Assembly: GCA_023627715.1 (NCBI GenBank)
Contig: JAMAHW010000122.1
Location: 1 to 64,000 of the forward strand
Length of the DNA: 64,000 bases
Direction: 5' to 3'
DNA from: Periconia sp. R9002
Taxonomy: Eukaryota > Ascomycota > Dothideomycetes > Pleosporales > Periconiaceae
Of this stretch, positions 20,056-48,972 are shown piece after piece; the first letter of the stretch is position 1; each line of letters begins with the position of its first letter. The position numbers were made by a program, and so were the translations under genes. Below the pieces are notes generated by a model. The model did no database searches. It was given only the letters and a program-made list of their open reading frames with translations, and was not told where the DNA came from.

Positions 20056-21539
20056 TTACACATAGACATAACAAAACGGCCCCGCAAGTGTACTACTCGC
20101 CTGCCTGATCGTAATATCCGGCACGCCCACAAACCCCAAACTAAGAACATCATCCAAAGACGTGTTCCGACTAGGGGGCTGGTTATTTACCGTCAACGTA
20201 CCCCCGACTACATACATCCTATTGAGCACATCCAAGTTTTGCCACGTGAAGTACGCGCGATCAATCGCCGCGTGGTGGAAGTAGAATGCAGGGTCACCGG
20301 GCGAGGCAAACAAGTCGCCTCCGGGGTCTGCGCCGATGGTGAAGTGGCCCCCCGTGTGGACGCCGAGGAACCCGGCGGGGAAGTTGCCTTGGAGAGTTGT
20401 GGCGAAGTCAACAACCGATGGGCTTTGTTTGAGGAGACCTGCTACCGAGGGGTCGGGCGTCCAGGTCGAAGAGGCGGCCACTGAGATGTCGCGGCTGAGA
20501 CAGCGCGGGTTGTAGCCCAGTCCATTGGGGAGCGGGTTGGGGGGAATGTTGGCACTCACGGGGCTTACAGGCCCGAGGTTGACGGTGAAGCTTTTGGAAG
20601 GGAAGGTGTTAGTTGTGGTGAGGAGGATGGGGGAGGGGAGGCAGGAATAAGCGTACTTTTTGAATGGTCCGGATTTGAGACATCCTCCACCATTTCCAGG
20701 AGGCAGGCTGATGTTACAGGCGTCGCGGGAAGGGATACAGGTGTTGTTACGACCAGCCACAAACTCTCCGTCGCCCGAGATGGAAGTCTCGCTGCCATCA
20801 AAGAGAGGAGACTTGGTAGGGTCGTTGGCCCATTTTGGCCAGTTGTAGTAGGGTTGGTATCCCTGGGCCGAGAATCAGTATGAGAGCGAAGAAATTTCGA
20901 GGGGTGGTGTTAGGTTTTACCTTGTAGCCACACTCGTTCCTCAGTGCTTGTTCGTACGCCCACGTGAAGTAGCGGTGCCAAGTGAGGAAGTTACCCTGCA
21001 AGAGTTAGTAAGGAAGAGGAGGAGGGTGAGATGAATCGGTGATAGTATTACAGTTCCATGGATCGATAGAGTCTGGTTGATATGCGTCGCGACGAAGTCG
21101 TCATATCTCGTCTTCGCGCCGGGGGCAAGTTCAGATGGCGTTTTGGCTGGTTTCTGGGACAGACACTGCACTGCAGCGATATATTCCTTCTTTTCCTTCG
21201 CTGAAAGAGCGGACCTACTTTTCGTTAACCATAACGCTCTCCAACCTGCAGGTATTGTGTGTGGCCTTACCATTCCTTTCTCACGGCCGCATTCTCCAGC
21301 GTGCACTTTGGCGGACCCTGTTGCGGAGGACAAGTCGGACCTACAGCCTTCGTGTCTACACGTTGGCTCTGTTCGAACACTTTCAGATTCCGCAAACCCA
21401 GATCCGCTAACGCATCCGACTCCAGCTGAGTTTGGTTCTCAGGATGCGGTTGCGGTGGCGGTGGGGGACCGGGAGCGGGTGCGGCGCTGACACCGCTGCA
21501 AAGCAGTGCAACCGTTGCTGCAACCGTTGATACTTTCAT
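20056..21539 (-). CDS. Secreted short-type tyrosinase
   Basis: Type-3 copper oxidase for phenols. Five exons, 21539-21271, 21214-21052, 20995-20921, 20862-20657 and 20590-20056, all with GT-AG introns, give 415 aa. A signal peptide is present (MKVSTVAATVALLCSGVSAAPAP), then a Pro-rich spacer. CuA histidines lie in VATHINQTLSIHGTGNFLTWHRYFTWAYE: the ATH, SIHG and TWHR residues. CuB is HTGGHFTIG followed by DPAFYFHHAAIDR. There is no C-terminal lid domain as in the large tyrosinases; the enzyme ends soon after CuB (QASSTLAGPFCYVYV). It resembles the ~400-aa secreted fungal tyrosinase group. The stop-free exon 4/5 join (KK/FTVNLGPV) supports intactness. Confidence 0.9.
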
Positions 21540-26604: not shown

Positions 26605-29600
26605 TCATCGCAAACCTCCAAGCTCCTCCATCAATCTGCATAGCGCTTGCGACAACGGCGGGCCTTTCTCGCGCGGTACATTAGGATGGCAGGCTTCGAG
26701 TAGCTTAACTCCAACCCTCATTACCTGTGATGGGACCTTGATGTTACAAATCTCATGACAATCTGGTGGTCCGAGGGACTTATCATGAACCGAAACTATA
26801 CGCAAGCAAGGTATCCCCGAACCGACAAGAATGAAGGTATCAACCATCGATTGGTTTTTGTCTGAGTCATCGTCCAGGAAGACAATCGAAGATTTCTCTT
26901 GTTGCACTGCCCCCGAATTCGCTTGAGCGGGGGTATTTAGTCCTGTCTTGATAGCACGGTCGCGCAACATCATACTGTATGTCCATATCACCATGACTGC
27001 GTGGTAAATCATGAATGAATCGGCCCCTCGAATCTGGTACGCTGGAATCGCTCTTGCAGCTCTCAGCAGTTGCCCTGCATGCCACACCACTGTCCGTGCC
27101 TTTTTGCTTGATGACCATGGCTGAAGGAGCGTGTATGCGTGATGCGCTTCTTCTTCTCCGTACTTTCCTGCAAATCGCGAAATGATATCTAGATCAGCGT
27201 TTAAGTAGATCTGAAGAAATTTATGGAAAACACAGGCAATGGCTGGTGAGTTCTCGAGAGTGAAGTCAGCGTTTTGGAGACATTGCTCTCTGTACCACTT
27301 TGTCAGTCAGATCACTATTATGCATATTTGCACTCACAATTTCTGCTGTCTGGATTGTAGCCATAACTGAGAAGATGCATCTATTCCATCCTCAAATAAA
27401 GCAGATTGTTTCGAGTGTTCCCAGATTTGTGCTGCTAGGCCATGAAGATAGGCAGATTTGGCAACGGAAATATCTAGATTTGGCGATAGACATTTAATGG
27501 CAGAATCATCTTGAAGGAGCGTTTTTAGAGATGTTGAGCAGTCTTTAGTTATCGTCTTTAGGAATCGAGCTCTCCATATCTCAGCTGAAGGAGCGAGCCA
27601 GAGCGCACGAGAGGCAGGTAAGGGTAGTGTCAACTCAGCGTATGATGTGAGAGGATTTCGATTTTTGACCTGCGTCATTTTCATATCGTGTTCAAATAGG
27701 TGATAGACAAGCCTTGCATAATCAGCATCAAGCTAATTTTTTTAAGGGCAAGCTTACCTTTTGTAAGACTCATGTTCTACCCAGGTACGCCACTTCTTCT
27801 CGAGGATCTCTTCACTATCATCCGCAGTAGGAGAGGTGGCTATGTATGAGACCTTGTCTAGTTTACCTGCACGCCGTAATGCCTGAATTGTATTAGATAG
27901 ACTACGCAAAGAATAATTGATGGTTTTCTGACCGTTACCAGAGGTTGCAGACTACTCTCTGCTATCTCCATCTTCCTTCTAAATCCGCAAAAAGCTGCAA
28001 TATCTAGCCAGAGCATCGATGCTTGCAAATATTGTAAATCACGCATAGTACTATTGTCATGTTCAGTCTACACAGATGGTACATCAGCCTAGGTCTTCCA
28101 AAGTAACACACTACTCACTAGTCTGCCTAAAGCAACCCGCACAATCTCCTGAAGAACCAGGCCTGTTCTACTGACAGATGGTATACCGAAACAGACACAG
28201 CCTGCTGCCACCAAAGCAGTTAAAAATTCAGGTCGGGCTGTTTCGCTTTCGAATGTATAAGGATGAATCCAAGCATCGGTCTCGGTTCGTTTTGCAATGC
28301 CCACTTTCATTAATCGATCGAGACAGTCCGCCGAGGGAAATGAAGGGATGGATATGCGACTTTGAGCGGTTTTAGAAACTAACTGGAAGACGCGATCGCG
28401 AGCTTGTGGTGAAAGGCGGTCTGTAATACTCAGAGTGGCTGCCGAAGGTTCGTGTGGCGAAGAGGCTAGGTCGACATTCCGCTCGTCCAATATGATTTTG
28501 TCATCTTCGCTGAATGTATGCTGGTTTTGTGAGGGCACCCATAGCCTGCATTCGCCCACGTTAGTGTATTTTCTAAACTAGTATTGCATTGGTGATGAAA
28601 GGTAGGAAAACCAACCAAGGGGATCGTTGAAAAATAGCATGCCTCATGCGAGCTGCATCTTGGCGAGTCTGCTGTTGAACAGATTCTGAGCTCTCTTTGT
28701 TACTGGGATCCCTTTGGCCCACGTGTCCAACAAAAAATTCATCAAGCACCCCTTGAACCTCAAAGGTTTGGTCTATCGTGGGTGTGAAGTCTATACTAAA
28801 GAGATCCCCCTCGCCCAGTCCGTCTATGTCAGGCATCCATGTCATGAGATCAAGTGGTGGTTGGGATGTTTCCATTCCAATGAAGTCGGGCTCGGACACC
28901 ATGATCTGCTCAAAAAAGCTTGGTATACCAGGAGGTTGGATGTAACCATTGCTGTATAAGTCCAAAAGTGCTTGGGCGTCAGGATTGACAATGTCATGAA
29001 ATGAGTCGACACACAATTGATCTGCATTTTGTGGATTGGAATTTTGTGGCAAATGAGTTGGGCTTAGAATTTCTGGCGGAGTCGGGAAGGTAACAGTAGC
29101 ATCTACTGCAAATTCAGTAGCAGGAGTAGCAGGTGGACTGGAACGGGATCGCGTGGCGTTTGATGTGCATACGATGTTTCTCTTGCGGCATCGCTTTTCA
29201 ATGGTTAATTGCCTATCTCAAGGAGGCTGAATATATGGTTACATACCTGGCACGGCCTAGAGTTATCGCACTTCACCTTGGATAAAACACAGGTATCGCA
29301 TGCTTTAGCTGCTCTCTCAGCTGTCCGGTTAGGCCCAACCTGGCCTTCAGCTGCATTTTTGGCGTGTGTCGACTGGTGTCGGAGAAGTAGGTCCCTGTAA
29401 TTATCGACATGAGAGATGATCGAGATAATGACTAAAGCAAGCTTACTTCCGATTGAAGGCAGCCGGACATACCTGGCATTGGAACGGCCTTTGATTCCGA
29501 TCTACTTTGGTCAGCAGGATTTTGGGTGATGTATCACGTGCTTACGTGAATCAAGATGCCTATTCAGATGATCGACGCGTTCGTAGGATCGATAGCATAC

Positions 29601-29693
29601 TTGGCATTGGAGCGTTTCTGGGTTGGTATTCCCTTCCGTGAGACGCTGACGTTTAGACGCCCTTGTATTGGCTTGAAATCCATCGTCCTGCAT
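26605..29693 (-). CDS. C2H2 + Zn2Cys6 dual zinc-finger transcription factor
   Basis: Nine exons: 29693-29546, 29501-29447, 29394-29247, 29193-28616, 28545-28119, 28067-27939, 27882-27758, 27712-27338 and 27289-26605. All phases agree and give 889 aa without a stop. Two C2H2 fingers come first (C30, C33, H46, H50 and C58, C61, H74, H78), then a Zn2Cys6 cluster (C100, C103, C110, C116, C119, C126). The long C-terminal part matches the fungal-specific transcription factor domain (for example EKKWRTWVEHESYKRLVYHL and WSSSKKARTVVWHAGQLLRA). Regulators with this double DNA-binding head often sit inside the gene cluster they control. The next genes fit that. Its own promoter carries TCGGAAAGTGG and a GCGGGG box, which suggests autoregulation and CreA input. 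Confidence 0.9.
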
Positions 29694-29790
29694 GTTCGTG
29701 GGGAGGAAATAAGAATTGCGGAAGATGTGGGAGTAGAGGTTTGAATACCTAGCTAGGTAATTAATGATGGTGGGCGAGAGGATCGAGTCC

Positions 29791-29801
29791 TCGGAAAGTG
29801 G
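29791..29801 (+). promoter_or_regulatory. Shared motif TCGGAAAGTGG upstream of the regulator
   Basis: Identical 11 bases also occur at 35876-35886 and 38433-38443. Here it is 98 nt before the regulator's start codon. It contains a CGG triplet, as Zn2Cys6 sites do. Binding by the regulator is inference. Confidence 0.5.
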
Positions 29802-29814
29802 GGAGTTAGCCTTT

Positions 29815-29820
29815 GCGGGG
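29815..29820 (+). promoter_or_regulatory. CreA-type box GCGGGG upstream of the regulator
   Basis: GCGGGG fits the SYGGRG consensus of the carbon repressor CreA. The wider string TTTGCGGGGT recurs exactly in the MFS promoter at 35787-35796. Confidence 0.4.
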
Positions 29821-29972
29821 TCACATAGCCTACCATCTTCCGAAACATGGGCTTGACAGGGGATTTCCTCTTCTCAATTTCCTTGTGTCACGATAGCAAT
29901 GTACTTCTTTTTGATAAAATAACTTGTAAGCATCTATGTACACAATGAAGAGAATGACAAAGCGAAGTGCTG

Positions 29973-31277
29973 CTAGACTGTAATTTCATGCTGCCGCTGC
30001 CATTCTTTCGCACCGCGATACATACAATTATAATCCATAAACTCATCAGGGCGCCTGTAATCACGTCAAAATTAGTGACTATGCTTCATGTATCGCAGCT
30101 GCACTCACATCTTAATCTCTTTGCTACCCTTATCCGTTGCTGGTTTCGCTGCTTGCCGGCTGAATCCTTGTATGAGAGAAGCTCGATCGTACCGACACTC
30201 GAAAACCGTCTGCAGAAGAGAAGAAATCTTCTCGGTGGAAGGCCGTTCATTGACCTCGTCGAAAAATGCCCCCAATGCTTCCGCGTCTTCCACTGCCTGG
30301 CTCGCACCTTGTCCTTGAGTAGGAAGCATTGCATGCGCTGCGTCCCCTATCAAAATCACGCGCCCTCGTGTCCATATTTCTAAAGGATCTATGTCGCGCA
30401 ATTGCCATAGACCAATACTTTCCGAGTGCTGAAATGTATTGCGGATCCATTCGGGAAATTCTCGAAATGTTGCCAGCATTTTATTAAGGTCACCTTTCGT
30501 TACCCAAGATGATGCTTCATGCGAGTCCTCGTTCATCTTTTCATCGGGCACAAGGCCGACTATGCTGTATATGTCCCCATTACGAGCAGGACCCATAATC
30601 AGGCGGCACTCATGCGCTGCTACCATACTCGTGCAAGGATGGTGAGGGTTGATTTTGTCGAAAAATTCCGGGCTTTTCTCTTCGAGCGTGGCTGACGGAA
30701 TCATGAGACGATATGCGGCTATACCGGTAGGGCGCGCTTGAACCTCTCTCCCCAGAACGAATGTCCGAAGCTTGCTGTGAATCCCATCTGCAGCGACAAT
30801 CATGTCACCCTCCAAAATCTCGCCACTCTCCAGAACAACCGTACCAGAATCGCAATCACAACTGACAACTCGAGAGGAAGTACGGATGGCAGGTGGTGTT
30901 CCTGGTCTTTCATTACTTGTGGCAGCTTCTTTGAGATATTCGTGGAGATCTTGTCGGTGCCACATGATCCGGTCTGCGCCATATTTATTAGTGACAAGAG
31001 GTATCTCGTTTACCATCACCCCCTCAGTATTATAGACCCGAAACGCTCCATCCACCATTCCTCGAGCCTTTTCACGAACATTTCCCAATTTCCAAGATTC
31101 TTCCAGGACTCGTGTTGCGTTGGGTTGGAGTGAGATGGTTGCGCCGATTTCAGTATTAAGTCGAGATTGCTCCAGAATGGTTATCTCCCTGTTCGGCCCG
31201 CGAAGAGCTATAGCTGCCGATATGCCTGCGATACCGCCGCCCACGATGATGATCCGGAATGGCATTGATGATGACAT
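29973..31277 (-). CDS. FAD-dependent monooxygenase (salicylate hydroxylase-like)
   Basis: Class A flavoprotein hydroxylase expected to hydroxylate an aromatic ring using NAD(P)H and O2. Exons 31277-30109 and 30054-29973, spliced over 54 nt, give 416 aa. The ADP-binding fold is at residues about 8-23 (IIVGGGIAGISAAIAL), the DG motif reads VAADGIHSKLR, and the flavin-ribityl GD motif reads ILIGDAAHAMLPTQGQGA. The second exon supplies the conserved C-terminal end (RPDEFMDYNCMYRGAKEW); without it the protein would stop short. Divergent from the first PhyH gene with 478 nt between starts, and 279 nt downstream of the regulator's start, same strand as the regulator. Confidence 0.9.
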
Positions 31278-31755
31278 TGTGTGGGATTGAGTCTGCCTTA
31301 CTTAAAATTAAAAGGATAAGTGAAGATGATATTGCAGATTTAAGAACGGAAGAAGACATTTTGATGGTAAATTGATCGATATTCTTTGCGCGATACACAG
31401 AATAGTAAGCGCATATAGACCTTATCCGTGTGGTCGGCCGCCCAATTCCTGCAAGACTTGTTAAAACGTTCTGCTAAGTAAATCCATCCCCACAATTTCC
31501 GATAGGTGTAAGTGGGCAGCACGGAGCTGGTGAGGTGTCCGGGTCGCGAAATATCCATTAGGAGAAAATGCCATACGTATGTCGGAACATGTGGGCACTA
31601 CTAGGTTTGCTACCATTTTCACTTTCGGTCCTGCGGTTGGTACTAACCATGAAATCAACATATTTCTTGACTAGAAAACGCTACCTTCAAACTTGTATCA
31701 TCGCAACGGATTTCTCGAGACTCGACATTGTCTGTTCATTCTACAACTTATCGAT
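31278..31755. promoter_or_regulatory. Divergent promoter, monooxygenase / PhyH 1
   Basis: 478 nt shared upstream region of two divergent genes. It lacks an exact TCGGAAAGTGG but has a weaker relative on the minus strand (CCGAAAGTGA, about 31626-31635). Confidence 0.4.
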
Positions 31756-32872
31756 ATGATCACAACTACTCAAACTGGTTTCATGACCCTGGAAGGAGTT
31801 GACGAGGGGCGTATGCAAGTGGATGGAAACCGCACAAACTACGGCGATTGGCGCGATGACTTGGCGCGTGATGGGTATGCTTTGATCAAAGGGGCTATAC
31901 CGCGTGAAAGAGCAGACAAATATGCAGACCAGATGTATAGCTGGCTAGAAGGCTTGTAAGTGAATATCGATCCGACAAAATGTTTGCAAGGATTAACTTG
32001 TTCAGCAACCTTGGTTTCGACCGAAATGATCTGTCTACTGTACATAAAGACAACCTGCCAGCCATCACAGAGAAGGGGATGTGCTTGCAGTATGCTGTAA
32101 CTCACGAGAATTTTGCCTGGTCTATTCGAGGAGAGCCAGGAGTTGTAGGGGCATTTGAAAAAGTATACAACACCAAGGATCTCATCGTATCATTTGATGC
32201 TGTGAATTTCGGTTTCCCAAAGTCAGTCTCTCCTACCGTGCTCTGTTGAAACTTTCCTAACAGCGGTGCAGTCGTACAGATCTCCCTCCCAACAAGCCAT
32301 GGCCCCACCAAGACCAGGATCCTGCGAAGCCGGGTTTCAGGTGCCTTCAGGGCCTGGTCAACCTTCTACCCAATGGCCCCAATGATGGCGGTCTTATTGT
32401 GTGTCCTGGAGGTCATCTTCTATCTGATGAATTCCACAAAGATATGGCGGACGAGCCTCGTATTCCAGCTTGGACTCCAGAATGGTATGGCTTCACAGAA
32501 AATGGCATGAAATGGCTAGAGAACAAAGGATGCAAATGGATCAAAGTTTGCGCTGATCCTGGTGATCTGCTGGTTTGGGATTCACGCACACCCCACTACA
32601 ATCTCAGTTCGACGACAAACCAACCACGTTTTGCAATCTACACGTGCTACATGCCAGTTGCGGATGCAACCCAGGAGGATCTCAAGCGCAAGAAAGACGC
32701 TTATGAACGCTGGGTTGGCACTACACACTGGCCAAATGCGAGGCACACCGGCTCGAACGTGGGAAAAAGGGATGGAGAGGACGACCCTCACAATCGTTTC
32801 GAACCAGTTAACAAGCCAGTTATGGACGAAAGGACATTCAAGCTCACTGGTATTCCTTACATTAAGGCATAG
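31756..32872 (+). CDS. PhyH-family Fe(II)/2-oxoglutarate dioxygenase 1
   Basis: Exons 31756-31955, 32006-32221 and 32272-32872 give 338 aa, with phases agreeing. The N-terminal helix pair reads DWRDDLARDGYALIKGAIPR. The iron site is the HxD in WPHQDQDP and a distal histidine in RTPHYNLS, with a likely 2-oxoglutarate arginine in QPRFAIYTCYMP. Length and motifs fit phytanoyl-CoA-dioxygenase-like enzymes that hydroxylate or desaturate small molecules in fungal pathways. It is a clear paralogue of the PhyH gene at 38648, but not a recent copy. The second intron ends at a GCAG two residues into what would otherwise be a frameshift (join FPN/RTDLPPNKPWP). Confidence 0.88.
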
Positions 32873-33522
32873 ATTAATTTCATTGAAATTGTCATGATCA
32901 GAAGACTAAATCGAAATGTTTTATTCGTCATGTGAAATACAATAATAGATAAAAGAAGAATGTGAAATTTTGGGTAGAAGACAGATCTTCTGTGTTAACC
33001 AGCGATCTACGTAAAGGGCAATTTTCTGTCTATTAGCTTGCTTGTTCTTTGATTTCAACTCAATCATGTGCTGTTTACTATTTGGATCATGGGGACTATT
33101 CAATAGGATCTTGGCCTTAATCTCAGTCAGTGCAGCGTTGTATTGAGTTTCAGACCAGAATGTAAAGCGAGTGATGGTCCAGCGACAAACGAAAGGCCCA
33201 CATGCTTTTCGTATCAACACCATATCTTGACAAACGTGTATCGAAGACAATGTATTTCGTCACTTAAATGCTAAAGAGAAGTAAATATTGTCTCATAAAT
33301 GACGCTGTCATTGAAGTTATAGCACATATTTATTGTAGTGCCCAATCGGGCTACTGAAACAAAAAGCATCTGAAGACGTAGCAAACTGCGCAGACCCACA
33401 GTGACAATGTTCTCAGCGTGGAAAGCCAAATGAGAAAGATCTCCCCAGCCAAGTCTTTCCGGCTTAGTAGTTCCTACGAATGTGGATCGGAAGCTATCAA
33501 TAAGGGTTCCCCAATATCAGTC
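32873..33522. other. Convergent intergenic region
   Basis: 650 nt between the 3' ends of PhyH 1 and the MFS gene. A minus-strand frame of 109 codons (33250-32921) has no start context or protein-like composition that persuades me. Confidence 0.45.
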
Positions 33523-35450
33523 CTAGTACGACATGGAAGGGTGTCCAGTCTTCTCTTTCATAGCCCATCTACCTGTGAACATTCGGATTTTCTTGCCATA
33601 GATAAATACGGGGATACCAAGCAAGCCCAATAAGGCCGTTAATGCACCATAAGTCCCAAACGACCCATCATAACCAGCAGTTTCGATAAACTTAGCAACG
33701 CCGTAGCTAGTTCCAAAACTGACGAATCCGCGGAAAGCGGTGATGACCACCAACACGGGTCCTGCACGTGTGGGATAAGAATCAAGTAGGTACGTGATAC
33801 CGGCGATGTTCGCCCCCACAAAAGCGAAGTAGTATGCCGCATTCGCAAAAACAATGGTGAACCAATGATACTTCTCCGGATGTTGACCAGCTTGTCCGTA
33901 TAAGACAGCAGCAATGACACCTATCGAAGTTGGAATCCACAATAGAAGCAGGCGGTTCTCGGGTTCATGAATACCCCCGTTTCGCTTCGCACGCCATTTA
34001 ATCACGAAATCGGACCCGTTTCCGAGTAGAGGTAATGCGACTAATGCGATGACGATTTGACCAGCATTGACGTAAGAGGCCGACGAGTCTGACCAGTTAT
34101 AAGGTGGTGATGTGACAATCGTGCCATAGGTTGTTCCGATAGCGATATTGACACCGCTGATACGTATGTTAGATAAGAATACTGTGAACCCACGGAGAGT
34201 TATTGGCAATCTTACACTGTGAGACCATTCAAACAAAATGCCCATAGCACATTGGGAAAAAACAACACTTGGAAAGTATTCTGCGAAAACATGAGCTGTG
34301 AAAATGGAAGGGGACGCAGAACCCTAAAAGACTCACGATGAAGCCGCGCCAACCTTCTTTCCAGTCTGCCTCATCGGTGAAGATACGCATGTCGGACCAA
34401 ATCGTCCGTGGTGCATAGTTGACGGTGTCTAGTGGAGGCTTTTCGCTAACTCGGATTGGCGGAGGAGCTGTCGCTCTCGAGGAATCACCCTCTCCCCCTT
34501 CTTCCCGGGAGAATTGGCCATAAGCGACAAGTGAGCGACGGAAACGGCTCTCGGGTACCCAAAACAACGAGAGTATGAGGATCACAGCACAAAGTCCCGC
34601 ACCAAGATTATACCAGTTTCCCGGCCCGATTGATTGTGCGATTGGGGATGCGCATAAGATGTAGATAGCCGCAAGGATGGTCTGCACGGCAGACTGCCAC
34701 ATTAGAAACGTGCTTCGTTCATGTATGAAATGTATTTCCTAGCACAGATATTAGCAGAGAGACAAATGTTTCGATAATCCGATCTTACCTGAATCATCAT
34801 AGGTACAAGAGCTTCACTCTGCCCTGCAGCTAAACCTAGTAACATTCGCGCACCCAGGTGCCACTCATAATTTTTCGAAAAAGCAGCCAAAACAGCGGAA
34901 CCGATTAAGAGAACTAGAGAACCGAGATACACGGGACGTCTTCCGATTGCGAGTGCGAGCGGGGTGCCGATTAGGCAGCCTATGCCCATAAACATGGAAG
35001 GGTATGTCATTAGGGCTGTAATGTCGGTGTATGTCGCTCCTTTGGCGCTATAGATAGGAATGTAAAAGCCCAACACTCCGCCGAATCCGGAGACAAGAGA
35101 TAGACCAAGAGCTGAAACTATACTGTCTATCAATGCGCTGGAGTTGCCCTAGTTATTCATGCTGCTTACAAGTAGAGGTTAATATGACGAAAACAATTTT
35201 CCGCCATTTGGGCATGTTCAACGGATCTACTTGAGAGTCAATAAATTTCCAAATACCGACTACCATCGGAAAGCTCACCTCTGGGATCCACGCTTGGAGC
35301 TGGGATGAGAAACAGATCTGCCGTATCGTTTAGGGTCACAGTGCCCATCGCAGCAGACTGCTCAACCGTGTGTTTCCCCGTCTCAACATCGTCAATCGTC
35401 TCACAGTGCTCAACTGTGGGTTCTAACGTCTTATCTTCTTTCATCTTCAT
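33523..35450 (-). CDS. MFS transporter, DHA1/HOL1-like
   Basis: Six exons, 35450-35279, 35226-35170, 35126-34789, 34738-34337, 34280-34216 and 34156-33523, give 555 aa. The start is an acidic cytosolic tail (about 60 aa) followed by DPLNMPKWRK, the usual lead into helix 1 of drug:H+ antiporter-1 carriers. About twelve helices follow, with the signature loop IGRRPVYLGSLVLLIG and a Lys/Arg-rich central loop. IQEIHFIHERSTFLMWQS resembles HOL1-group carriers, known for polyamine or quaternary amine transport. The cargo is unknown. It lies in the cluster with the monooxygenase and PhyH genes and has TCGGAAAGTGG and GCGGGG upstream, so co-regulation is plausible. Confidence 0.88.
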
Positions 35451-35789
35451 AATGCACTAATAATGGCCCTAGACCTAGTCGTGTTGAAAAATATGGGAAA
35501 TTTGAACAATGATGCGCGATGAAGAAGATGAATGTAACCCGCTCGTCCCTTGGGAAGAGCAATCATCGAGGTCCTGGCCCACTGTGAATGTCTCCAAACA
35601 TTTGGATCCCAAAGACTGTATATATGAGGTAGATGGATCCATGTTCTAATTTGCTGTTGAGTGAGAACATGCCGTTCCCACTCACGCCGATGAAGGCTCG
35701 AGTGTTCAGTTTACGAATGCCCCACATCCCGGTCAATATCTTAATTGAGGACTACCCCGGATTTTTCGACCCTTCACGATTATGGATTT

Positions 35790-35795
35790 GCGGGG
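35790..35795 (+). promoter_or_regulatory. CreA-type box GCGGGG in the MFS promoter
   Basis: Part of TTTGCGGGGT, identical over ten bases to the box in the regulator promoter, 340 nt before the MFS start. Confidence 0.4.
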
Positions 35796-35875
35796 TACAT
35801 ACCCGGGGAAGTCATGCACCCCGCGCGATGAACGCACGAGGGAGGCGGGTGATCGTGAAAACTGCCTAGATAAGC

Positions 35876-35886
35876 TCGGAAAGTGG
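35876..35886 (+). promoter_or_regulatory. Shared motif TCGGAAAGTGG upstream of the MFS gene
   Basis: Exact copy of the 11 bases in the regulator promoter; here the match extends to twelve (CTCGGAAAGTGG in both). It lies 426 nt before the MFS start codon, and 372 nt past the 3' end of the hydrolase gene. Confidence 0.5.
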
Positions 35887-36257
35887 ACGCTAGTTCACAG
35901 CAAGCCAACACAGGCCGGTTGTTGGGACCGGTTTGAATACGCCCCTAAAAATTGATCTGAACCTCGTATCCGGTTTGTACTCGGACCTTTGTCAATAACA
36001 TTGGAAGCATACACAAGTACGTCAATTGTATTGAGAGGTCCATTTAGGTAGGGAAAAAGCTCAACGGGGAAGCGCCGTATTCGGGCCTTTTGCATAAGCA
36101 ATAAAGAAAGATGCATGGCATGAGCACAAAGCAGGGCTATACAGACTTAATATGCATTGGTGAACAGTGTACATTTCAGTAAAAAGATAAATTATGCTCG
36201 ATTCAAATATAATAAATTGTATTCATGATGTATGAAAATGAAAACTACCTCAGAGGT

Positions 36258-38099
36258 CTATAGCGGAACAAAAGGAAGAATAACTTTGCTAGGAGTCTGC
36301 GGTCCGCAATGTATCCTGTGTTCACCCTTGTTCTTCTCGGACTCCGGGCGAGGCACTGAAAATGTTGTGTACTCAGCAATTGACGGAAAAGTCCCACCAA
36401 CCTGCTCGAAAATTAGCCTCTTCTCACAAAATTTCATTTGCTATGCATTGCTTACCTGTACGCTTATCGATTCACCTTCGTCAAAATCCACGCCCATTGA
36501 CCAAATGCCAATCTCCAGCTTCACAATATCACCAGGGAGAATCTTCTGCTGTTCATCATGGGGATGGAATGGAAACTGTGGATGGATGGATCGTTCAGGA
36601 TCAAACTTCCGGTGACTCGCGCGCAACACTCCCACGCTTCCCAGGTGCAAGTTGAGACTCGCTTGTTCTTTTTCAGAAATGTCGTCTATGCTCTTCACGT
36701 GGGATGGTACGGCTGAGAACGGGAAAGTGAGGTGCATCAATAGTTTACCGTTCTTGTCCCGTTTTCGAAGTATCACAAAGATATTCATGTCATCGTGAGT
36801 AGGGCAAGACATGTAGAGGACCGCTTTCGGTAATCCAATAAGTCGGGACTTTTGAGAAAAGGTGTAGGTGAACTCTGCGATGGACTTTGCGTCTTCAGAG
36901 TCGTAACTTACCACCTCATCCTGGCTCCCGGCACTCTCATTCATTCCTGAGCTTGCAAGATGGAACTCACGGTACTCTGTTCCCGGAATTGGAAAATCGG
37001 CGAATTCGATATCATCAATAGCCTCGCGGTCGCCGAATTGGAGTGCTGACCAACGAACTTTCGGTGTCTTCTCCCAATCATTCTCGATCCCTTTCAGATA
37101 ACGGTTGAAGTATTTGTGCAATTCCGCGTCGGCTGATTTCACACAGTATAGCTCGTACCACTCCTGGTACGATGCCCATCTGATCCACTTATTATCATGG
37201 GGCAACTCCAGCCAGGCCCTCACAGATCCCATAGTATGGATACTACTGAAGTCGCTGCCGCTAATGTAAACTGGGATTTTGATTTTGGTCATATCCGGCC
37301 TCTTGTCTGCCCAATATGCATTACACACCGGAGAGCGCCGGTACATTTCCGCCATATCTTCAATGCCGCCCCCTGGATTGTTTGTTTTGATGATGAATTT
37401 GGTGATGAGATCGAAGTTGGACATGGAGAAGACTCCACCGCGACAGAATTGCTCTCGGTAGATATCACCTGAGCCCTCCCAAGGAGCGATTGCTGCGAGG
37501 TGCGGTGGCTGCAACGATGCGACGTGCCATTGGATAATAGCTAGCGCAGAATTGCCTGCCATTCCAACTTTTCCATTGCTCCATGGCATGGCTGCGAGTG
37601 CTTCAATCACGTCATAGCAATCTTCCGCATCTTGAGAGCCCATCAGAGGTATGGATCCATCGGAGTTTCCGGTTCCTCGTGAGTCGACTGATACAATAGC
37701 GTATCCCCTCGGGCACCAGACAACTGGATCCAGTCCTTCAAATTTTTCCAGGCCACTCAATGCTTCGCGTGGGACGCAGCAATTCCAAACGCAGATAGGG
37801 AGCATATGCAATGCCGAATATTTTTTGCCATAGCATGACCAGCTGACAACGGCTGGTAGCTTCTCCGTTTCTGGAACATCGGCGGGTCGATAGATATCTG
37901 CGTATAGTCGACACCCGTCTCGTACTGTGATCTCAACGTCGTGATCGATTCGGATATCGGATTCCAGTGGTCGTGCGTCGTAGCGGTTGGTGCCTTTCTT
38001 GAGCACCTCAGATTTGCCTGGCATAAAACCTTGATAGTTGTTGACACCAATTTCAGGTTTATCAATTGGCTTGAACGCAACTTGTATAGGAACCGGCAT
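36258..38099 (-). CDS. CocE/NonD-family (S15-like) acyl hydrolase
   Basis: Alpha/beta-hydrolase of the X-Pro dipeptidyl-peptidase/cocaine-esterase class, which cleaves acyl esters or amides. Two exons, 38099-36456 and 36401-36258, give 595 aa; the second exon (GGTFPSIAEYTTF ... LPFVPL) completes the C-terminal jelly-roll domain. The nucleophile elbow is GMAGNSALA, after RGTGNSDGS and a Trp-rich oxyanion region (PAVVSWSCYGKKY). A helical lid lies at about 230-300. The substrate is unknown; in this setting it could open the pathway by hydrolysing an ester or amide. Divergent from the second PhyH gene across 548 nt containing TCGGAAAGTGG. No signal peptide, so cytosolic. Confidence 0.9.
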
Positions 38100-38647
38100 G
38101 TTGGCGTTGACGAGTTGAGGGAGAAATTGGAGTGGTATTGATATAACGAAGCAGTCTTAGATTTTCGAGTGATTGAGTCAATTCAATTTAGTCTTGAAGT
38201 TTCAGTGTGATCTGTATTGACAAAAAAGTGTTTGGGGTATACCATTTTGTTCCGCGAAACCTTCCATTTTACCCAACGGCGCATAGCCTCTTCCGAGAAT
38301 TCCGATGGTTCCGAGCCGAGGCTACTGCATCTACCGGCCATTAGGGGATTAGGTACCCCACACTTACCCACCCCCGCAACTCCCGAAGTTTCATACACAC
38401 CTCAGATGTTCGCCCTGACTTTTAAGCGTCTTTCGGAAAGTGGGAAATTGATCTCCCCGCGCCGGGCAGGGGCCTTTGTGTCAGTGATGATACTGTTTGG
38501 GCGATACTGAACCCCTCAGCGGATGTGGTCTGTACTTATAACGGATTATCCAAGCTTCATACCTCAAATCCAGCACCTCTTTTCACACACAGATCCTATC
38601 ATTGAACTCTCTCAGTATCTCTATTACCACTTCACATCAGGCACATC
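38100..38647. promoter_or_regulatory. Divergent promoter, hydrolase / PhyH 2
   Basis: 548 nt shared upstream region. Besides TCGGAAAGTGG it has a palindromic GGTATACC at about 38237-38244, a GGTACCCC at 38352-38359 and a CCCCGC box (minus-strand GCGGGG) at about 38372-38377. Confidence 0.5.
38433..38443 (+). promoter_or_regulatory. Shared motif TCGGAAAGTGG in the hydrolase / PhyH 2 promoter
   Basis: Third exact copy, 205 nt before the PhyH 2 start and 334 nt before the hydrolase start. ATCTCCCCGCG follows within 25 nt. Confidence 0.5.
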
Positions 38648-39712
38648 ATGGCACCACACGCCGAAGAACCCAAACCAGATTCAGGCGTTGATCTGATTCA
38701 GCATGATGGTTCCAAGTACGGTGATTGGCGTGACGATTTCCACCGCGACGGTTGTGCCATAGTCAAGGGCGTCATCACACCTGAACGCGCTGAATATTAC
38801 AAGAAGAAGCAGATCGAGTGGCTACAGTCGTTTAATCGTGGTTTCGACCCGAATGACGAATCAACGTGGACCCAAGAGCACCTCCCCGTCAGTTTCAAGG
38901 GCGGCATGTACTTCGCCTATTCCAGCACCCATGAGAAATTTGTGTGGGAAGCACGCACGGAGCCTAAAGTAATTGATACATTCAGCAAACTATGGGGCAC
39001 TGAAGAACTTCTCTGCTCCTTCGACGGAATGAACATTACCTTACCTCGCCAGAAAGATTTGACCTGGAGCCCATGGCCACACACCGATCAAAGTCCTCAC
39101 CGAAAAGGAATGCAATGTGTCCAAGGCTTGCTGAACTACCAGCCAAATGGCCCCGATGACGGTGGTTTGATTCTCATGAAAGGTAGCTCGAAGCTGTTTG
39201 ACGACTTTTTCCGTGAGAAGAGGGAGCAGGACAACCACGAAGATAAACCCCCAGAGGAGGAGAATTTCAAAGATCTCTTTATCTTCAAGAAGGAGGATGT
39301 CAAGTGGTTTGAGGAAAGAGGCTGCAAGCTCGAGAAGATCTGTCTCGATCTCGGTGATTTGGTATGTCTCCTTGTTATCCCTCCACTTATACATCCAAGT
39401 CTCACATTGCGTCAGGTTCTTTGGGATTCCCGCACTATGCACTATGCCTGCTTTCCACAAGGGGACAGAATCAGACACGTTCAATATATCTGCATGACCC
39501 CTGCGAAGTTCGCCAAGAAGGAAGATTATGAGCTGAAGGCTAAGATGTTCAACACGTGGCAAGGAACCACGCATTGGCCACATTGCAATATTCGCGTGCA
39601 GGGCCCTCCCATGAGGAACGGGGAAGTCTGCTCTCAGAACCGGACGGAACCGCTCGAAAAGCCGATTATCACAGATAGATTGCTGCAGTTAGCGGGAGCC
39701 AAGGCGTATTAG
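38648..39712 (+). CDS. PhyH-family Fe(II)/2-oxoglutarate dioxygenase 2
   Basis: Coding span 38648-39361 and 39416-39712, 336 aa after removal of a 54-nt GT-AG intron. The intron has no stop and is a multiple of three, so an unspliced form would be 354 aa. The iron motif HxD is in WPHTDQSP (about residue 143), the distal histidine in TMHYACF and a strand follows with HVQYICMTP. The N-terminus DWRDDFHRDGCAIVKGVITP aligns with PhyH 1. An acidic/lysine insert (about 180-215, REKREQDNHEDKPPEEE) is absent from PhyH 1. A dioxygenase of small-molecule metabolism; substrate unknown. It may act in sequence with PhyH 1. Confidence 0.88.
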   Translation: MAPHAEEPKPDSGVDLIQHDGSKYGDWRDDFHRDGCAIVKGVITPERAEYYKKKQIEWLQSFNRGFDPNDESTWTQEHLPVSFKGGMYFAYSSTHEKFVWEARTEPKVIDTFSKLWGTEELLCSFDGMNITLPRQKDLTWSPWPHTDQSPHRKGMQCVQGLLNYQPNGPDDGGLILMKGSSKLFDDFFREKREQDNHEDKPPEEENFKDLFIFKKEDVKWFEERGCKLEKICLDLGDLVCLLVIPPLIHPSLTLRQVLWDSRTMHYACFPQGDRIRHVQYICMTPAKFAKKEDYELKAKMFNTWQGTTHWPHCNIRVQGPPMRNGEVCSQNRTEPLEKPIITDRLLQLAGAKAY

Positions 39713-39878: not shown

Positions 39879-40913
39879 CTAACTCGTAGCTTTACATAAG
39901 GCGTCTACCACCTTTGCCCCATCCAATCCATACTTGCTGAGCGCATCCGCACTGAAAGTCTCACACAAATACTCATGATACCCCTGAGTATTCCCCGCCC
40001 TCAGCACCTGGAAGATGAACAGATCAGTCATTGCATCTTTAAGCTCCCCCTTCGCCTTTTCGACATCAACAACCTTCTCCTTTTGCCCACAAACCAATTC
40101 TTTAACTGTACTCGCCACTAACCCCGTTTTCTGCACGCTGTATTCATATTTCGCCCAGTTGTTACAAACATAGTCGACTTGCTGAGGCTCTTTGGCGAGA
40201 ACCCTGAATACACGCCCCATGAATTTCGACATCAACACACCCACGTTCGCGACTACATCTGCCGGTTGCGTAGCATTAGTGTACGTTGAAAATGGCCCTT
40301 TTCCAAAATATCCCGCCGAAGCACAGAAACCGCTTTCAACATCTACACCTCCTTCATCCGTATCTAGACATGGCGCCCACAACCCTCTCAAAAGTGAAGC
40401 TTCCAGATACCAGCACATGTCGAAGTACCACTGCTTCGTCGCGCTTTGCGCAGAGTAGGCTTGAACGTTGAAGATTCCGCCGGTGTAGAGCTTCATGTAC
40501 CATAGCTGGTTCTGTGGGACGGGGAGAGGGGAAGGCGGTTTTGATGTTGATGCGGAACATATGGCGTCTTTCGCGAGCTTGGCAACGTCACCATCGGGTT
40601 GAGAGTACGCTGTGTAGTAGCGTGAGGAGAGAGTGTTGAAGTTGGAACATAGGTAGGCTAGTTCTGTGTTGTTGTTGGAAATCGTGTTGGTGGCGTGGGC
40701 GAGGGCTGCGTAGGTCCAGGAGTAGATGGAGGATATGTTACGCCCCGGTGCTTTGTTTCTGTGAGTAAAAGTCTCTTTGGAGTTGTTGTTTAAGCACATA
40801 CTTGTTATACTGCCTGGTCCATAGATTGTTCGCTTGTCTAGAGGAATTGTAGAAGCGCTTGCCCTCGGCAACCCCAAGGCAAGAAGCGTAGTAACGGTCG
40901 CAGAAAACTTCAT
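39879..40913 (-). CDS. Secreted cysteine-containing hypothetical protein
   Basis: Single frame of 344 aa with a signal peptide (MKFSATVTTLLALGLPRASA) followed by a Kex2-type LDKR site at about residues 25-28. The mature part holds ten cysteines, an even number fit for disulfides (SMCLNN, LCSNF, ICSAS, MCWYL, PCLD and others), and several N-glycosylation sequons. The middle (WYMKLYTGGIFNVQAYSAQS) is aromatic-rich. I recognise no enzyme motif. Proteins of this kind are known in ascomycete secretomes without a function. A donor-acceptor pair near 40750-40800 would shift the frame if used, so I keep it unspliced. It marks the right border of the oxidative cluster. Confidence 0.7.
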   Translation of the reverse strand: MKFSATVTTLLALGLPRASASTIPLDKRTIYGPGSITSMCLNNNSKETFTHRNKAPGRNISSIYSWTYAALAHATNTISNNNTELAYLCSNFNTLSSRYYTAYSQPDGDVAKLAKDAICSASTSKPPSPLPVPQNQLWYMKLYTGGIFNVQAYSAQSATKQWYFDMCWYLEASLLRGLWAPCLDTDEGGVDVESGFCASAGYFGKGPFSTYTNATQPADVVANVGVLMSKFMGRVFRVLAKEPQQVDYVCNNWAKYEYSVQKTGLVASTVKELVCGQKEKVVDVEKAKGELKDAMTDLFIFQVLRAGNTQGYHEYLCETFSADALSKYGLDGAKVVDALCKATS

Positions 40914-41561
40914 GGTGACAAATCTTGGCGAAATCTATCGATCTACCTGAAGACTACCTCAAATCTTCCGTAGCTTCCCCACAGCCCTATTAATACTGCC
41001 TTAGCGGAGGAGCCGGCTTGTTTTGATCCTGACGACCATGTGCGCATCCCCGCATTTCAAAATATAGTGCGCTTGATTAATTTGATGGGTGCAAAATTTA
41101 GAGTGTTTGGGATCACCGCAGGGAATAATCCGGGGATGGTCTTTTTAAATGCCGGCATGTTCATTTATTTTTGCTTGGCGGGATGAATCCTTCGGAAGCA
41201 AGCGTGAGGACTGTTACCAGGAAAATATGATTATGAAGCAGATCGGTGAGAAAAGAACCTCAGAAATGGAAACTTCATTGCTGCGGAGAGTCTTGAAATT
41301 GTCCTTGATGAAGAGATAGAACCATATGGGCTGTCTCATATGCTGATACGACTTCAGAGTTATCAAATTGGTCGAAGTTTCAAGAGACGGCAAGAAGAGA
41401 AGCATAGTATACATCGGTGTTACGATTACTATTAAAAGATTACAGAAGTACTCAATCGGCTAAACTCCTGTCGGGCATGATTGTCGCCATGTGCAAAAGC
41501 AGAAAGAGGCGCAAGTAATAATGTAGAAAAGCCCAACTACGCCATGAGGACGGGGGAATAT
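40914..41561. other. Intergenic, nothing supported
   Basis: About 650 nt between the secreted-protein promoter and the 3' end of the large tyrosinase. Short frames only. Confidence 0.5.
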
Positions 41562-43651
41562 TTAGCCGTCGATAGAACCGTGTTTCGCAAAATCAGCACT
41601 CCACTTCTCAAATTCCGTTGCGGAAGTCGCTGGTTGAACCTCTGTGCTAACCAACTCCACTGTCAAGGCTTTGACTTTCTCCTTCTCAATTTTCTTGCCG
41701 CCCTGTGGTCGTCAGTAACATAGCTGTAGAAAAGGGTTCAGGTCACTCACGATTTCCACACGATAGCTGACGTTCTCCTTCAAAAAGTCAAGCGCCTTCT
41801 CCGAGGTAGTTGTTCCCTTTTTGATGGCTTTATTCAAGGCAGACGTCAAGTCCACAAGGTGTGAGGCTACCTGGTCGTTCCTCATCTTCGCGCCACCCAA
41901 CGTTGACGCCATACCAACCAGGCTGTCAGAAGCGGCCCATGCCTTGGAATCACTGCTGACATTGCCTAGAAACACAATGACATTGTATGGCAAAGATCCG
42001 CCGTTGCCATCGTCAAGTGCATAGAGGGGGAGCTGAACTTCAGCTAGGTACCTCGTATAAGACGAAGCTCGCTTCGACGCCGATCTGCCTTGTAATGCTT
42101 CACCATCCTCAGATGAACCATATAGGCTGATGACTTTGGCCCTGAGTTGTTCTGGGGTGGTGTTGATCAACTCTGGGTAAGTATATCCAAGTTTATTGAT
42201 GTTACGAACGTCGGCAGAAGTCAAGAAATCACCAGCCTTGTTCTTGTGAAATGGAGTAAGTGCTGCCATCCATCATTCAGTAACTGTTCATCGAGATTTG
42301 GTGTCATATGCACTTACGAGAGGTCTCATTAAGGGTGTCCCCGAAGTTGATGGTGAATGTAGGTGTGAAAGCAAAACATTCAATTAGATAAGAGTCAGGA
42401 TTCAACGCCTGCCAGATTGCGACTTGCCGGTCGACAGTACTAGAGTGCTTTTAGTTTCCATATCCTCACTTGTTTATTCCATAGACTCACGCATGATGGA
42501 GCCAAAACACTGGATCGAAAGCTGCCGCACCCGGAGGCGCCATGTGACCAGGGAAATGTAGCGTATGGGGAGGGCCATGGACGGATTCTATGTTTCCAAA
42601 TCTATCCGATCCACAACCCTGAGTGGTTGCAATGGAGTTGAAGTTCTGGCCTTGCGTCAGGACTCTGGATAAGCCACTCCGTTGACCATCCAAAATGTTG
42701 CGGAAATTTGTGTTCAGCTCCGCCGTGGAAGGGCGAATCGTGGACGGAGAGTTTTGGCATACGGAAGGGTCACCCGCACCCTCTGGGCAGCCCTAGGGAA
42801 TGAATTAGCGAGTGCAAAAACCGGAAGAGAAAGACCACTAACCGTTCCGTTAAATTCTCTGTTGTTGAGAGGATGGAAGTCATAGTTGTAAAGTGGGTTA
42901 TCAATCGTAGCAGCGGTCCCGTTAGGGAACGTGACACGGACCTGTACGTTGGAAACTGCAGTGGGATAAACCGGCTCGTTTGCACCAACTGCTTTCGCCC
43001 AATCCCAATGCGGAATGCGAAGTTTGTTCGCAGCGTCCTGGTATTTTGCTTTTACCGCTGTAGGGAATTGGCTCGCGATGTTCTTCGCAATACTTTGCAG
43101 TTTTTGCTACGCAGAATTAGCATCAATATGCACTACCCTGGATAGGAGGCGCTCACTTCGAACAGCATCAAATACGGCCTATGCCATGTCGAGAAAAGCA
43201 ACTGATTGTGAGGACAGTAACCCATCTCTGGCCTCTGTGGCACGTCTACGCCATCCCAGGGGTACCTGAAGAATGAGTAAAGCACGAAATGTAAGTAGCA
43301 GAGTTCTAATCACCATGGCATCCCGTGTATCCCTGCAATCTGGTAGTACGAATCAATGACTTTCTGGTCAATTGCTTCAAACTCCCTCAAAGCTAACAGG
43401 TACAAGTTCCACATCTCGCCTGGGAAATTAGTGAGAAAATGATTGAACGTGGATCAAAATTGACTTTGCTTACCAGTTCGTTCCAAATCTCGAATCTCAA
43501 GACGTGGGAAAACACCACCTGTGGCACCAGTGACTGGATAATACGATCCTGGTTTCTGCCTTGTCACGAGCTCGCCTTCTTCGGCAAGGAAAGGCTTGCC
43601 ATTCACGCATGTAGCCAGCAGTGCTGCTGCTGCTGCATACTTCGACAACAT
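41562..43651 (-). CDS. Secreted tyrosinase with C-terminal domain
   Basis: Type-3 copper phenol oxidase. Eight exons: 43651-43474, 43419-43314, 43265-43157, 43106-42843, 42792-42491, 42439-42318, 42262-41751 and 41702-41562, giving 577 aa in phase throughout. A signal peptide is present ([20 protein letters not shown]). CuA includes GIHGMPW, then [19 protein letters not shown]; the C-x-H in CPH matches the cysteine that forms the His-Cys thioether in fungal tyrosinases. CuB is [13 protein letters not shown] followed by [15 protein letters not shown]. The GYTYPEL sequence resembles the Tyr motif that ends the catalytic domain; about 180 residues of lid domain follow and contain a KR site. Full-length and apparently functional, unlike the short tyrosinase at 20056. 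Confidence 0.92.
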
Positions 43652-48153: not shown

Positions 48154-48972
48154 CTGAGTGGCTCTAGAGTGATCTGGCAGTGAAATTGTAGGTAGCAATT
48201 TTTCAATATCAAAGGAATGGACAAGAAATAAATAATTTGACAATTATATAGCTGTTTACTTTGAAAGTTGCTCGTCAATATTAGGACAGTAGTGGTGACC
48301 AAATCGGGTGAGTCAAAATGACTCATCGTATGGATGCTAGTACCATAAATGACTCGCCCGCAACATTTACGGGTTGAGCCATGAGGATGACGCGCTCTGA
48401 TGCAATTTCTTTCTTGACAAGTTTCTAGTGATAGAAAAACGAAAATGGACACTGTAGGATCGCCTTTATTTAAAAATCAGAAATCAAGAATCTGTCGATT
48501 CTGACGGATGAGGTATGAAACTGAGATCGCTCATTCCACAAACGGAAATAATTATGGTGGCTGTGCCTCGATCGTCAAAGGTGGGCCTCTGTGGGGTCAA
48601 CAACACAATAAAATGTGGCAAATAGAAAACAAGCTACTCAGAACTCTGCCATTACTTCTGTTTTAAAACTGTCAAATATGTACCGTCTCCTGACCAGCTA
48701 TGTACAGAGGAAATCCCAAATATACTGTCCGTTGAGGCTATCCATAACCACCAAGTTAATCCATCGCGTCATACACGTCGCGTCTTAAGAATATTTACAG
48801 GTTGAAATCAATCAAGTATCGTATAAGAATGGGAGGAAGGGAAAAGGTAGGAAATGGGGGAAAATGTCAAGGAGAGGTGAGAGAGTGGGTGGAGGTGGGA
48901 AAGAATATCAAAACAATAAGAAAAGAGAGAAGAAAGTCAAGGCAAGCATCGCCAAGAGTAGAGTATCGACGA
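48154..48972. other. Intergenic, nothing supported
   Basis: Promoter of the acyltransferase (minus strand) and 3' flank of the laccase. Purine-rich plus strand at about 48825-48950. Confidence 0.5.

Follow-up and report, generated by a model that had tools for sequence, protein, structure and literature searches.

A candidate self-regulated catabolic gene cluster with a shared bipartite promoter element in Periconia sp. R9002

Six adjacent genes probably under common control

We analyzed a 64,000-nucleotide stretch of DNA from Periconia sp. R9002 (contig JAMAHW010000122.1, here C122, from a genome of 42.9 Mb in 267 contigs), which we refer to as the window. Between positions 26,605 and 39,712, six adjacent genes encode a transcriptional regulator, a flavin monooxygenase (FMO), two Fe(II)/2-oxoglutarate (2OG) oxygenases of the PhyH family, an MFS carrier, and a CocE/NonD-type hydrolase. 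Their sequences and promoters indicate a real and conserved cluster whose members are probably co-regulated. We further consider it fairly likely that the genes form a self-regulated regulon for the catabolism or detoxification of an esterified or amidated aromatic compound. The regulator would bind a bipartite element, TCGGAAA-(N0-2)-GTGG(GG), in four promoter regions, including its own, and, when an inducer is present, would turn on itself and the other five genes. The MFS carrier would import or expel the compound, the CocE-type hydrolase would cleave its ester or amide bond, and the FMO would hydroxylate the aromatic acid thus set free, possibly in a decarboxylating reaction. The two PhyH oxygenases would oxidize the aromatic further or, alternatively, oxidize the released side chain. 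The substrate and the order of reactions in this scheme are guesses, and we infer its catabolic direction.

Exon models for the six genes were built by hand and checked by script, with boundaries that are inferred and do not come from cDNA. All frames close in the spliced models, which yield uninterrupted proteins and contain GT..AG introns of 41 to 70 bases. Apparent frame breaks in a three-frame reading had suggested that the MFS and regulator genes were broken; these reflected misplaced introns, and the idea was dropped. In order along the window, the genes are as follows.

29693-26605, minus strand: regulator with two C2H2 fingers, Zn2Cys6, and a fungal_trans region; 9 exons, 889 amino acids (Pfam)
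31277-29973, minus strand: FMO, group A, salicylate/vanillate hydroxylase-like; 2 exons, 416 amino acids (Pfam FAD_binding_3)
31756-32872, plus strand: PhyH1, Fe(II)/2OG oxygenase; 3 exons, 338 amino acids (Pfam PhyH)
35450-33523, minus strand: MFS carrier; 6 exons, 557 amino acids (Pfam MFS_1)
38099-36258, minus strand: CocE/NonD-type hydrolase (CocE); 2 exons, 595 amino acids (Pfam Peptidase_S15 and PepX_C)
38648-39712, plus strand: PhyH2, Fe(II)/2OG oxygenase; 2 exons, 336 amino acids (Pfam PhyH)

An earlier note on this DNA had assigned the six genes to these families and start positions, which the closed models and Pfam matches confirm. It had also described two divergent pairs, and both are real: FMO/PhyH1 and CocE/PhyH2 are separated by intergenic gaps of 478 and 548 bp. 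Its remark that no biosynthetic core is present was borne out as well, in that no PKS, NRPS, terpene, or DMAT domain was found in the six models and the 30 of 143 window open reading frames (stop-to-stop, at least 100 amino acids) that were scanned. Its broader proposal, a coherent cluster with its own regulator, holds in part: the cluster appears real, CocE, PhyH2, and FMO have conserved co-location, and the promoter element is found at four of four regions, with the regulator's control of the set a probable reading. The sequence of reactions suggested in the note, in which an ester or amide is hydrolyzed, the ring is hydroxylated, and two Fe/2OG oxidations follow, is possible. Among the best 120 matches listed, the closest relatives come from Periconia macrospinosa (95% identity for the hydrolase and 87% for the FMO).

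A promoter element that fits the domains of the regulator

The cluster has four promoter stretches (29694-29972, 31278-31755, 35451-36257, and 38100-38647). The last three were used in a word search, and the regulator promoter (29694-29972) was held out of this first search. The seven-mer TCGGAAA was among 11 common to the three stretches and was also found in the held-out regulator promoter. Followed by GTGG after zero to two bases, it occurs exactly once per promoter region, with no other copy anywhere on C122. Three of the four regions contain an identical 11-mer, TCGGAAAGTGG, for which no further site with at most one mismatch exists in the window. The candidate sites are listed below.

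29791-29801, plus strand: candidate regulator site TCGGAAAGTGG, regulator promoter, 98 bp upstream of the first in-frame ATG
31490-31502, minus strand: looser candidate site TCGGAAATTGTGG(GG), listed also as TCGGAAATTGTGGGG, FMO/PhyH1 bidirectional promoter
35876-35886, plus strand: candidate regulator site TCGGAAAGTGG, upstream of the MFS gene
38433-38443, plus strand: candidate regulator site TCGGAAAGTGG, CocE/PhyH2 bidirectional promoter

Across the 42.9-Mb genome, TCGGAAAGTGG has 26 copies against 18 for a reversed control, which indicates that it is not a common word, with 3 of the 26 in cluster promoter regions; TCGGAAA-N(0-2)-GTGG has 88 copies against 82 for its control, with 4 of the 88 in the cluster, one per promoter region. 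By a crude stop-to-stop test, 18 of the 23 TCGGAAAGTGG sites outside the cluster fall in open frames of at least 110 amino acids, as does the regulator-promoter site, which lies upstream of the first ATG; we claim no additional regulon members from these 23 sites. Sharing of this kind was rare in controls. None of 3,000 non-overlapping random quadruples of stretches drawn from the window had an 11-mer in at least three of four (nine had a 10-mer), nor did any of 2,000 shuffles (10 had a 10-mer). Four seven-mers were common to all four regions (0.24 expected, P = 0.006), and AAATTGATC was common to three (0.015 nine-mers expected). TCGGAAA was absent from the convergent gap at 32873-33522, which is expected to be free of promoters. 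Two general control motifs were also counted in the four regions. Nitrogen control was set aside as a candidate, with HGATAR sites at background (7 versus 6.7 in shuffles), and the carbon-control motif SYGGRG was mildly raised (12 versus 6.7), which may be just overlap with the G-rich motif.

The regulator has both DNA-binding domain types in a single protein, as judged by Pfam matches to Zn_clus and, for the second finger, to zf-C2H2. A double-finger model spanning both fingers stayed below its cut-off (28.9 versus 40 bits), and Fungal_trans narrowly missed its own (20.9 versus 23 bits). The finger helices read E-R-V-D-H-L-N-R and N-R-K-D-L-L-L-R; under the C2H2 contact code, these favor GGG and GNG, hence 5'-GNGGGG-3'. 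CGG is the usual half-site of Zn2Cys6 domains. GNGGGG occurs 11 times in the four promoter regions (4.0 expected, P = 0.009). A narrower form, GHGGGG, was taken before counting from the predicted site of HxnR, the related regulator of the hxn genes of Aspergillus nidulans (PMC8478523); it also occurs 11 times, versus 2.8 in shuffles, with 0 of 1,000 shuffles reaching 11. GTGGGG is complete at two of the four candidate sites, and the remaining two read GTGGAC and GTGGGA. Taken together, the CGG within TCGGAAA, the finger code, and the GHGGGG counts point to an element composed of CGG plus a G-rich finger site, 3 to 5 bases apart. The candidate element, with its CGG half-site and GTGGGG-like core, thus fits a regulator that carries both Zn2Cys6 and C2H2 domains.

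Co-location of cluster genes in other fungi

To assess conservation, we compared the contigs that carry relatives of PhyH2, CocE, and the FMO, using the best 120 of 542, 1,129, and 2,917 matches, respectively; all co-location counts are accordingly lower bounds. The carrying contigs had 119, 120, and 119 distinct sizes (one row each for PhyH2 and FMO came without a contig). Equal size of the longest carrying contig was taken to indicate a common contig, and in each of the 13 named PhyH2/CocE pairs both members come from a single species. By this measure, at least 16 contigs carry PhyH2 and CocE, at least 11 carry CocE and FMO, at least 5 carry PhyH2 and FMO, and at least 2 carry all three, whereas control sizes shifted by up to 100 bases gave averages of 0.07, 0.065, and 0.11 common contigs. 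For megabase contigs, such a result indicates a common contig only, not adjacency. Some common contigs are short (6,199 bases for PhyH2 and CocE, 12,882 and 13,184 bases for CocE and FMO, and 13,793 bases for PhyH2 and FMO) and thus fit the spacing in the window. In Verruconis gallopava (PV09_08627/08628) and in Coleophoma crateriformis (BP5796_03549/03548), CocE and PhyH2 have adjoining locus tags, whose numbers differ by three in Penicillium cataractarum (N7496_006605/006602).

The co-located CocE and PhyH2 relatives are 59 to 78% identical to the window proteins and come from species that we take to span the Dothideomycetes, Eurotiomycetes, Sordariomycetes, and Leotiomycetes. Every named case with an FMO on the common contig is, by our assignment, from the Dothideomycetes. 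The earlier note had named scattering of the orthologues in relatives as a finding that would speak against a cluster; this was not seen for CocE, PhyH2, and FMO, the three genes compared. As judged from these matches, the conserved core of the cluster is CocE plus PhyH2, which is widespread, and the six genes appear to be unequally conserved as a unit. As a separate observation, Aspergillus parasiticus has two CocE relatives, one of which has the same contig size (671,608 bases) as a PhyH2 relative. This PhyH2 relative is 72% identical to the window protein, versus mostly 65 to 67% in the other listed top-group aspergilli, and a transfer is possible.

A paralogous regulator in a second cluster

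Genome-wide, 51 of 55 candidates were scored, and among these a single further protein, encoded on contig C9, is related to the regulator over nearly its full length (28 to 32% identity); it is likewise a C2H2 plus Zn2Cys6 protein. Its neighbors within about 12 kb are an FMO, an MFS gene, a LigB-type dioxygenase, an M20 peptidase, a CocE, a cupin, a fumarylacetoacetase-type gene, and an acetoacetate decarboxylase domain; the cluster region (C9:466001-496000) also holds a cytochrome-domain GMC oxidoreductase. Given that two CocE loci lie elsewhere in the genome, the chance that a random regulator would lie within 8 kb of a CocE is about 0.0007. Hydroxylation of a ring, its cleavage by LigB, and hydrolysis of the fumarylacetoacetase type all belong to catabolism, which suggests that regulators of this family control at least one cluster likely to serve aromatic catabolism. 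The C9 genes are, by their domains, likely to form an aromatic ring-cleavage catabolic cluster, and this favors a catabolic role for the window cluster; the earlier note had judged a catabolic or stand-alone tailoring pathway more likely than a classic metabolite cluster.

Duplication of a block that gave rise to both clusters was considered and rejected on the identities of CocE and FMO; the feature common to the two is the regulator family. The C9 CocE is 57 to 69% identical to a CocE on contig C49 versus 21 to 44% to the window CocE, and the C9 FMO is 32% identical to the window FMO. The first C9 MFS stretch had no real similarity to the window MFS. In the C9 promoter gaps, which were crudely set from open frames, TCGGAAAGT is present in two, at 486032 and 490355, a small count that is only suggestive.

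More tentatively, these comparisons raise the possibility of a general grammar in which the Zn2Cys6 domain takes CGG and the two C2H2 fingers take GTGGGG, 3 to 5 bases apart. It might define an undescribed, widely conserved Pezizomycotina regulon for the utilization of aromatic esters or amides, in which paralogous regulators would each command a CocE-anchored cluster with swapped oxidative modules (the PhyH pair here and a LigB plus fumarylacetoacetase type on C9). If true, the paralogous pair of clusters would offer a directly testable model for site choice by C2H2 plus Zn2Cys6 regulators.

Catalytic features of the enzymes

The hydrolase family model TIGR00976 was scored on a relative 95% identical to the window hydrolase and gave 186.9 bits (cut-off, 66.3). 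In 121 aligned rows, the nucleophile Ser184 and His288 in the strand-7 loop are invariant, and the strand-8 loop reads Gln312-Glu313-Trp314 throughout; no column between residues 304 and 318 holds His in all rows. The C9 and C49 paralogues, unlike the cluster CocE, have His-Asp in the strand-8 loop, where an ungapped alignment pairs the His with Glu313 and the Asp with Trp314, a match uncertain by one residue. Six bacterial CocE relatives have Gln (three), Met (two), or Leu (one), and no His, at the Gln312 column and Glu at 313 in every case. Each of the nine sequences in this alignment has the His of strand 7 (His288). A dead hydrolase (pseudoenzyme) was considered and dropped, as the bacterial relatives are likewise without the strand-8 His and all have Glu313 and His288. 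At none of the six bacterial CocE loci was there a match to FMO, PhyH, MFS, or the regulator nearby (E = 1e-4).

The CocE/NonD hydrolase in PDB entry 3ib3 is homologous to the cluster CocE over its full length (E = 1.5e-73; profile, 5e-96), and the two have in common the Ser, the His of the strand-7 loop, and the Glu of the strand-8 loop. In a profile search, cocaine esterase aligned well only in the nucleophile half (residues ~126 to 250), leaving the Asp/His portion unaligned; we take its triad to include Asp259 and His287. A rearranged catalytic triad relative to cocaine esterase is possible in the cluster CocE subfamily. An AlphaFold model of the cluster CocE was poor (mean pLDDT, 53.7) and was not used.

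The FMO carries GGGIAG as its N-terminal GxGxxG motif, and D164 G165 and G311 D312 are kept in at least 115 of 121 rows. Its best solved relatives are aromatic-acid hydroxylases, the top one being the decarboxylative vanillate 1-hydroxylase 8x38. Like 8gsm, an entry named 4-hydroxybenzoate decarboxylase, 8x38 is a group A enzyme that matches most of the FMO length; both are distant (phmmer E = 1.5e-49 for 8x38 and 2.9e-34 for 8gsm), and their substrates are not transferable. Another solved relative, 6pvf, is listed as an FAD monooxygenase and is, we presume, from fungal alkaloid biosynthesis.

PhyH1 and PhyH2 are 42% identical. The HxD...H metal triad and 2OG-binding Arg of PhyH2 (H145, D147, H247, and R258) are invariant in 37 aligned relatives chosen from the 120 listed, and PhyH1 has counterparts of all four residues. 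A third PhyH relative in the genome (C34:284900-289700) is 50 to 53% identical to PhyH2 and adjoins a Fungal_trans gene and a sugar-transporter-type MFS gene.

Relation to described systems

No described cluster with this gene content was found in the literature searched, which left most subscription journals outside its coverage, and the earlier note's statement that the exact content is undescribed stands within that scope. A 2018 survey of phenylpropanoid-degrading fungal clusters may include FMO-anchored clusters like the present one. The novelty is in the combination of genes and in the bipartite promoter element; the enzyme families are already known. If the proposed regulon is real, it would add to the conserved catabolic modules of fungi one whose cis element and regulator are concrete and can be tested quickly. 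Its substrate could then be sought among aromatics with ester or amide links, by growth on them or by their effect as inducers.

Two described systems resemble the cluster. FDB1 and FDB2, the benzoxazolinone detoxification clusters of Fusarium verticillioides, share with it a regulator-linked catabolic gene set with MFS, hydrolases, and a salicylate-hydroxylase-like monooxygenase, and in both fungi a paralogous cluster lies at another genomic location (PMC4726666). FDB1, however, has a metallo-beta-lactamase, amidases, a dienelactone hydrolase, and an amino-acid transporter, where the present cluster has CocE and two PhyH enzymes, and only a Zn(II)2Cys6 domain is given for its regulator, whereas the present one adds C2H2 fingers (PMC4726666). 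The hxn genes of A. nidulans form a nicotinate co-inducible regulon with a C2H2 plus fungal_trans regulator, MFS carriers, a 2OG dioxygenase, oxidoreductases, hydrolases, bidirectional promoters, and the predicted GHGGGG site (PMC8478523). The domains given for HxnR are C2H2 fingers and fungal_trans alone, whereas the present regulator also has Zn2Cys6; HxnY is a PF03171-type oxygenase, whereas those of the present cluster are PhyH; and the six genes include no counterpart of HxnS, a molybdo-enzyme from the xanthine oxidoreductase group, or of HxnT, an old yellow enzyme (PMC8478523).

Competing explanations

Several observations weigh against a co-regulated catabolic cluster. The element was discovered inside the cluster, so its genome-wide counts are not an independent test. 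Enrichment of GHGGGG was weaker against random window quadruples (11 versus 3.7 expected, P = 0.022), and no 8-mer was common to all four promoter regions. In a run of 2,000 random quadruples whose stretches could overlap, 16 had an 11-mer in three of four and 61 had a 10-mer; we attribute the 16 to overlaps because the non-overlapping run gave none. No ring-cleavage gene is present among the six cluster genes. PhyH enzymes are equally common in biosynthesis and breakdown, and the fold matches of PhyH2 include the natural-product oxygenases SnoN, KanJ, SptF, and PrhA, plus the DUF1479/YbiU/GIG2 group. These Foldseek matches concern fold only, and absence from the list excludes no family; the DUF1479/YbiU/GIG2 oxygenases (for example, 4rgk and 6akz) are 14 to 16% identical to PhyH2 in sequence, and their function is not transferable. 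Finally, the listed CocE and FMO relatives of Aspergillus filifer, A. versicolor, and Aaosphaeria arxii are on separate contigs, indicating that the FMO is not a universal member.

It is conceivable, though in our view unlikely, that the genes form a small biosynthetic cluster, tailoring or stand-alone, in which the FMO and PhyH pair modify a metabolite made elsewhere, CocE transfers acyl groups or forms esters, and the MFS carrier exports the product. Many fold neighbors of PhyH2 are natural-product oxygenases, the FMO has 6pvf among its solved relatives, and an MFS carrier with a regulator is the usual trim of biosynthetic clusters. Set against this are the missing core enzyme in the models and frames scanned, the C9 paralogous regulator beside ring-cleavage-type genes, and the co-occurrence of CocE and PhyH2 at the identities given above across what we take to be four classes, a pattern more like utilization than patchy biosynthesis. 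A nitrogen-scavenging cluster of the nicotinate or benzoxazolinone type, diverged from hxn or FDB1 and handling an N-heterocycle or lactam, strikes us as quite improbable. The similarities to both systems listed above speak for it, including the enriched HxnR-type site and the Zn2Cys6-bearing regulator of FDB1, but by Pfam the six genes have no counterpart of HxnS, HxnT, or the FDB metallo-beta-lactamase, amidase, and dienelactone hydrolase, and HGATAR sites are at background. That the six are merely chance neighbors, unrelated oxidative genes from families that are large in Pezizomycotina, we regard as highly improbable. FMO-type genes are abundant in this genome (55 matching stretches, counting that of the window), and genes for MFS carriers and Zn2Cys6 proteins are common as well, but only three CocE and three PhyH loci were among the scored genome matches, co-location is conserved, and the promoter element occurs at the four cluster regions and nowhere else in the window.

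Neighboring genes

Just outside the cluster, a fungal rhodopsin-domain gene lies at about 25 kb, and tyrosinase-type genes flank both sides (20059-20874 and 41712-43106). Beside PhyH2, an orphan frame on the minus strand (39879-40934, 351 residues) had no Pfam match and has an N terminus that looks secretion-like by eye. Further along the window are a TRI101-like acyltransferase (46738-48243) and a multicopper oxidase (49324-50565).

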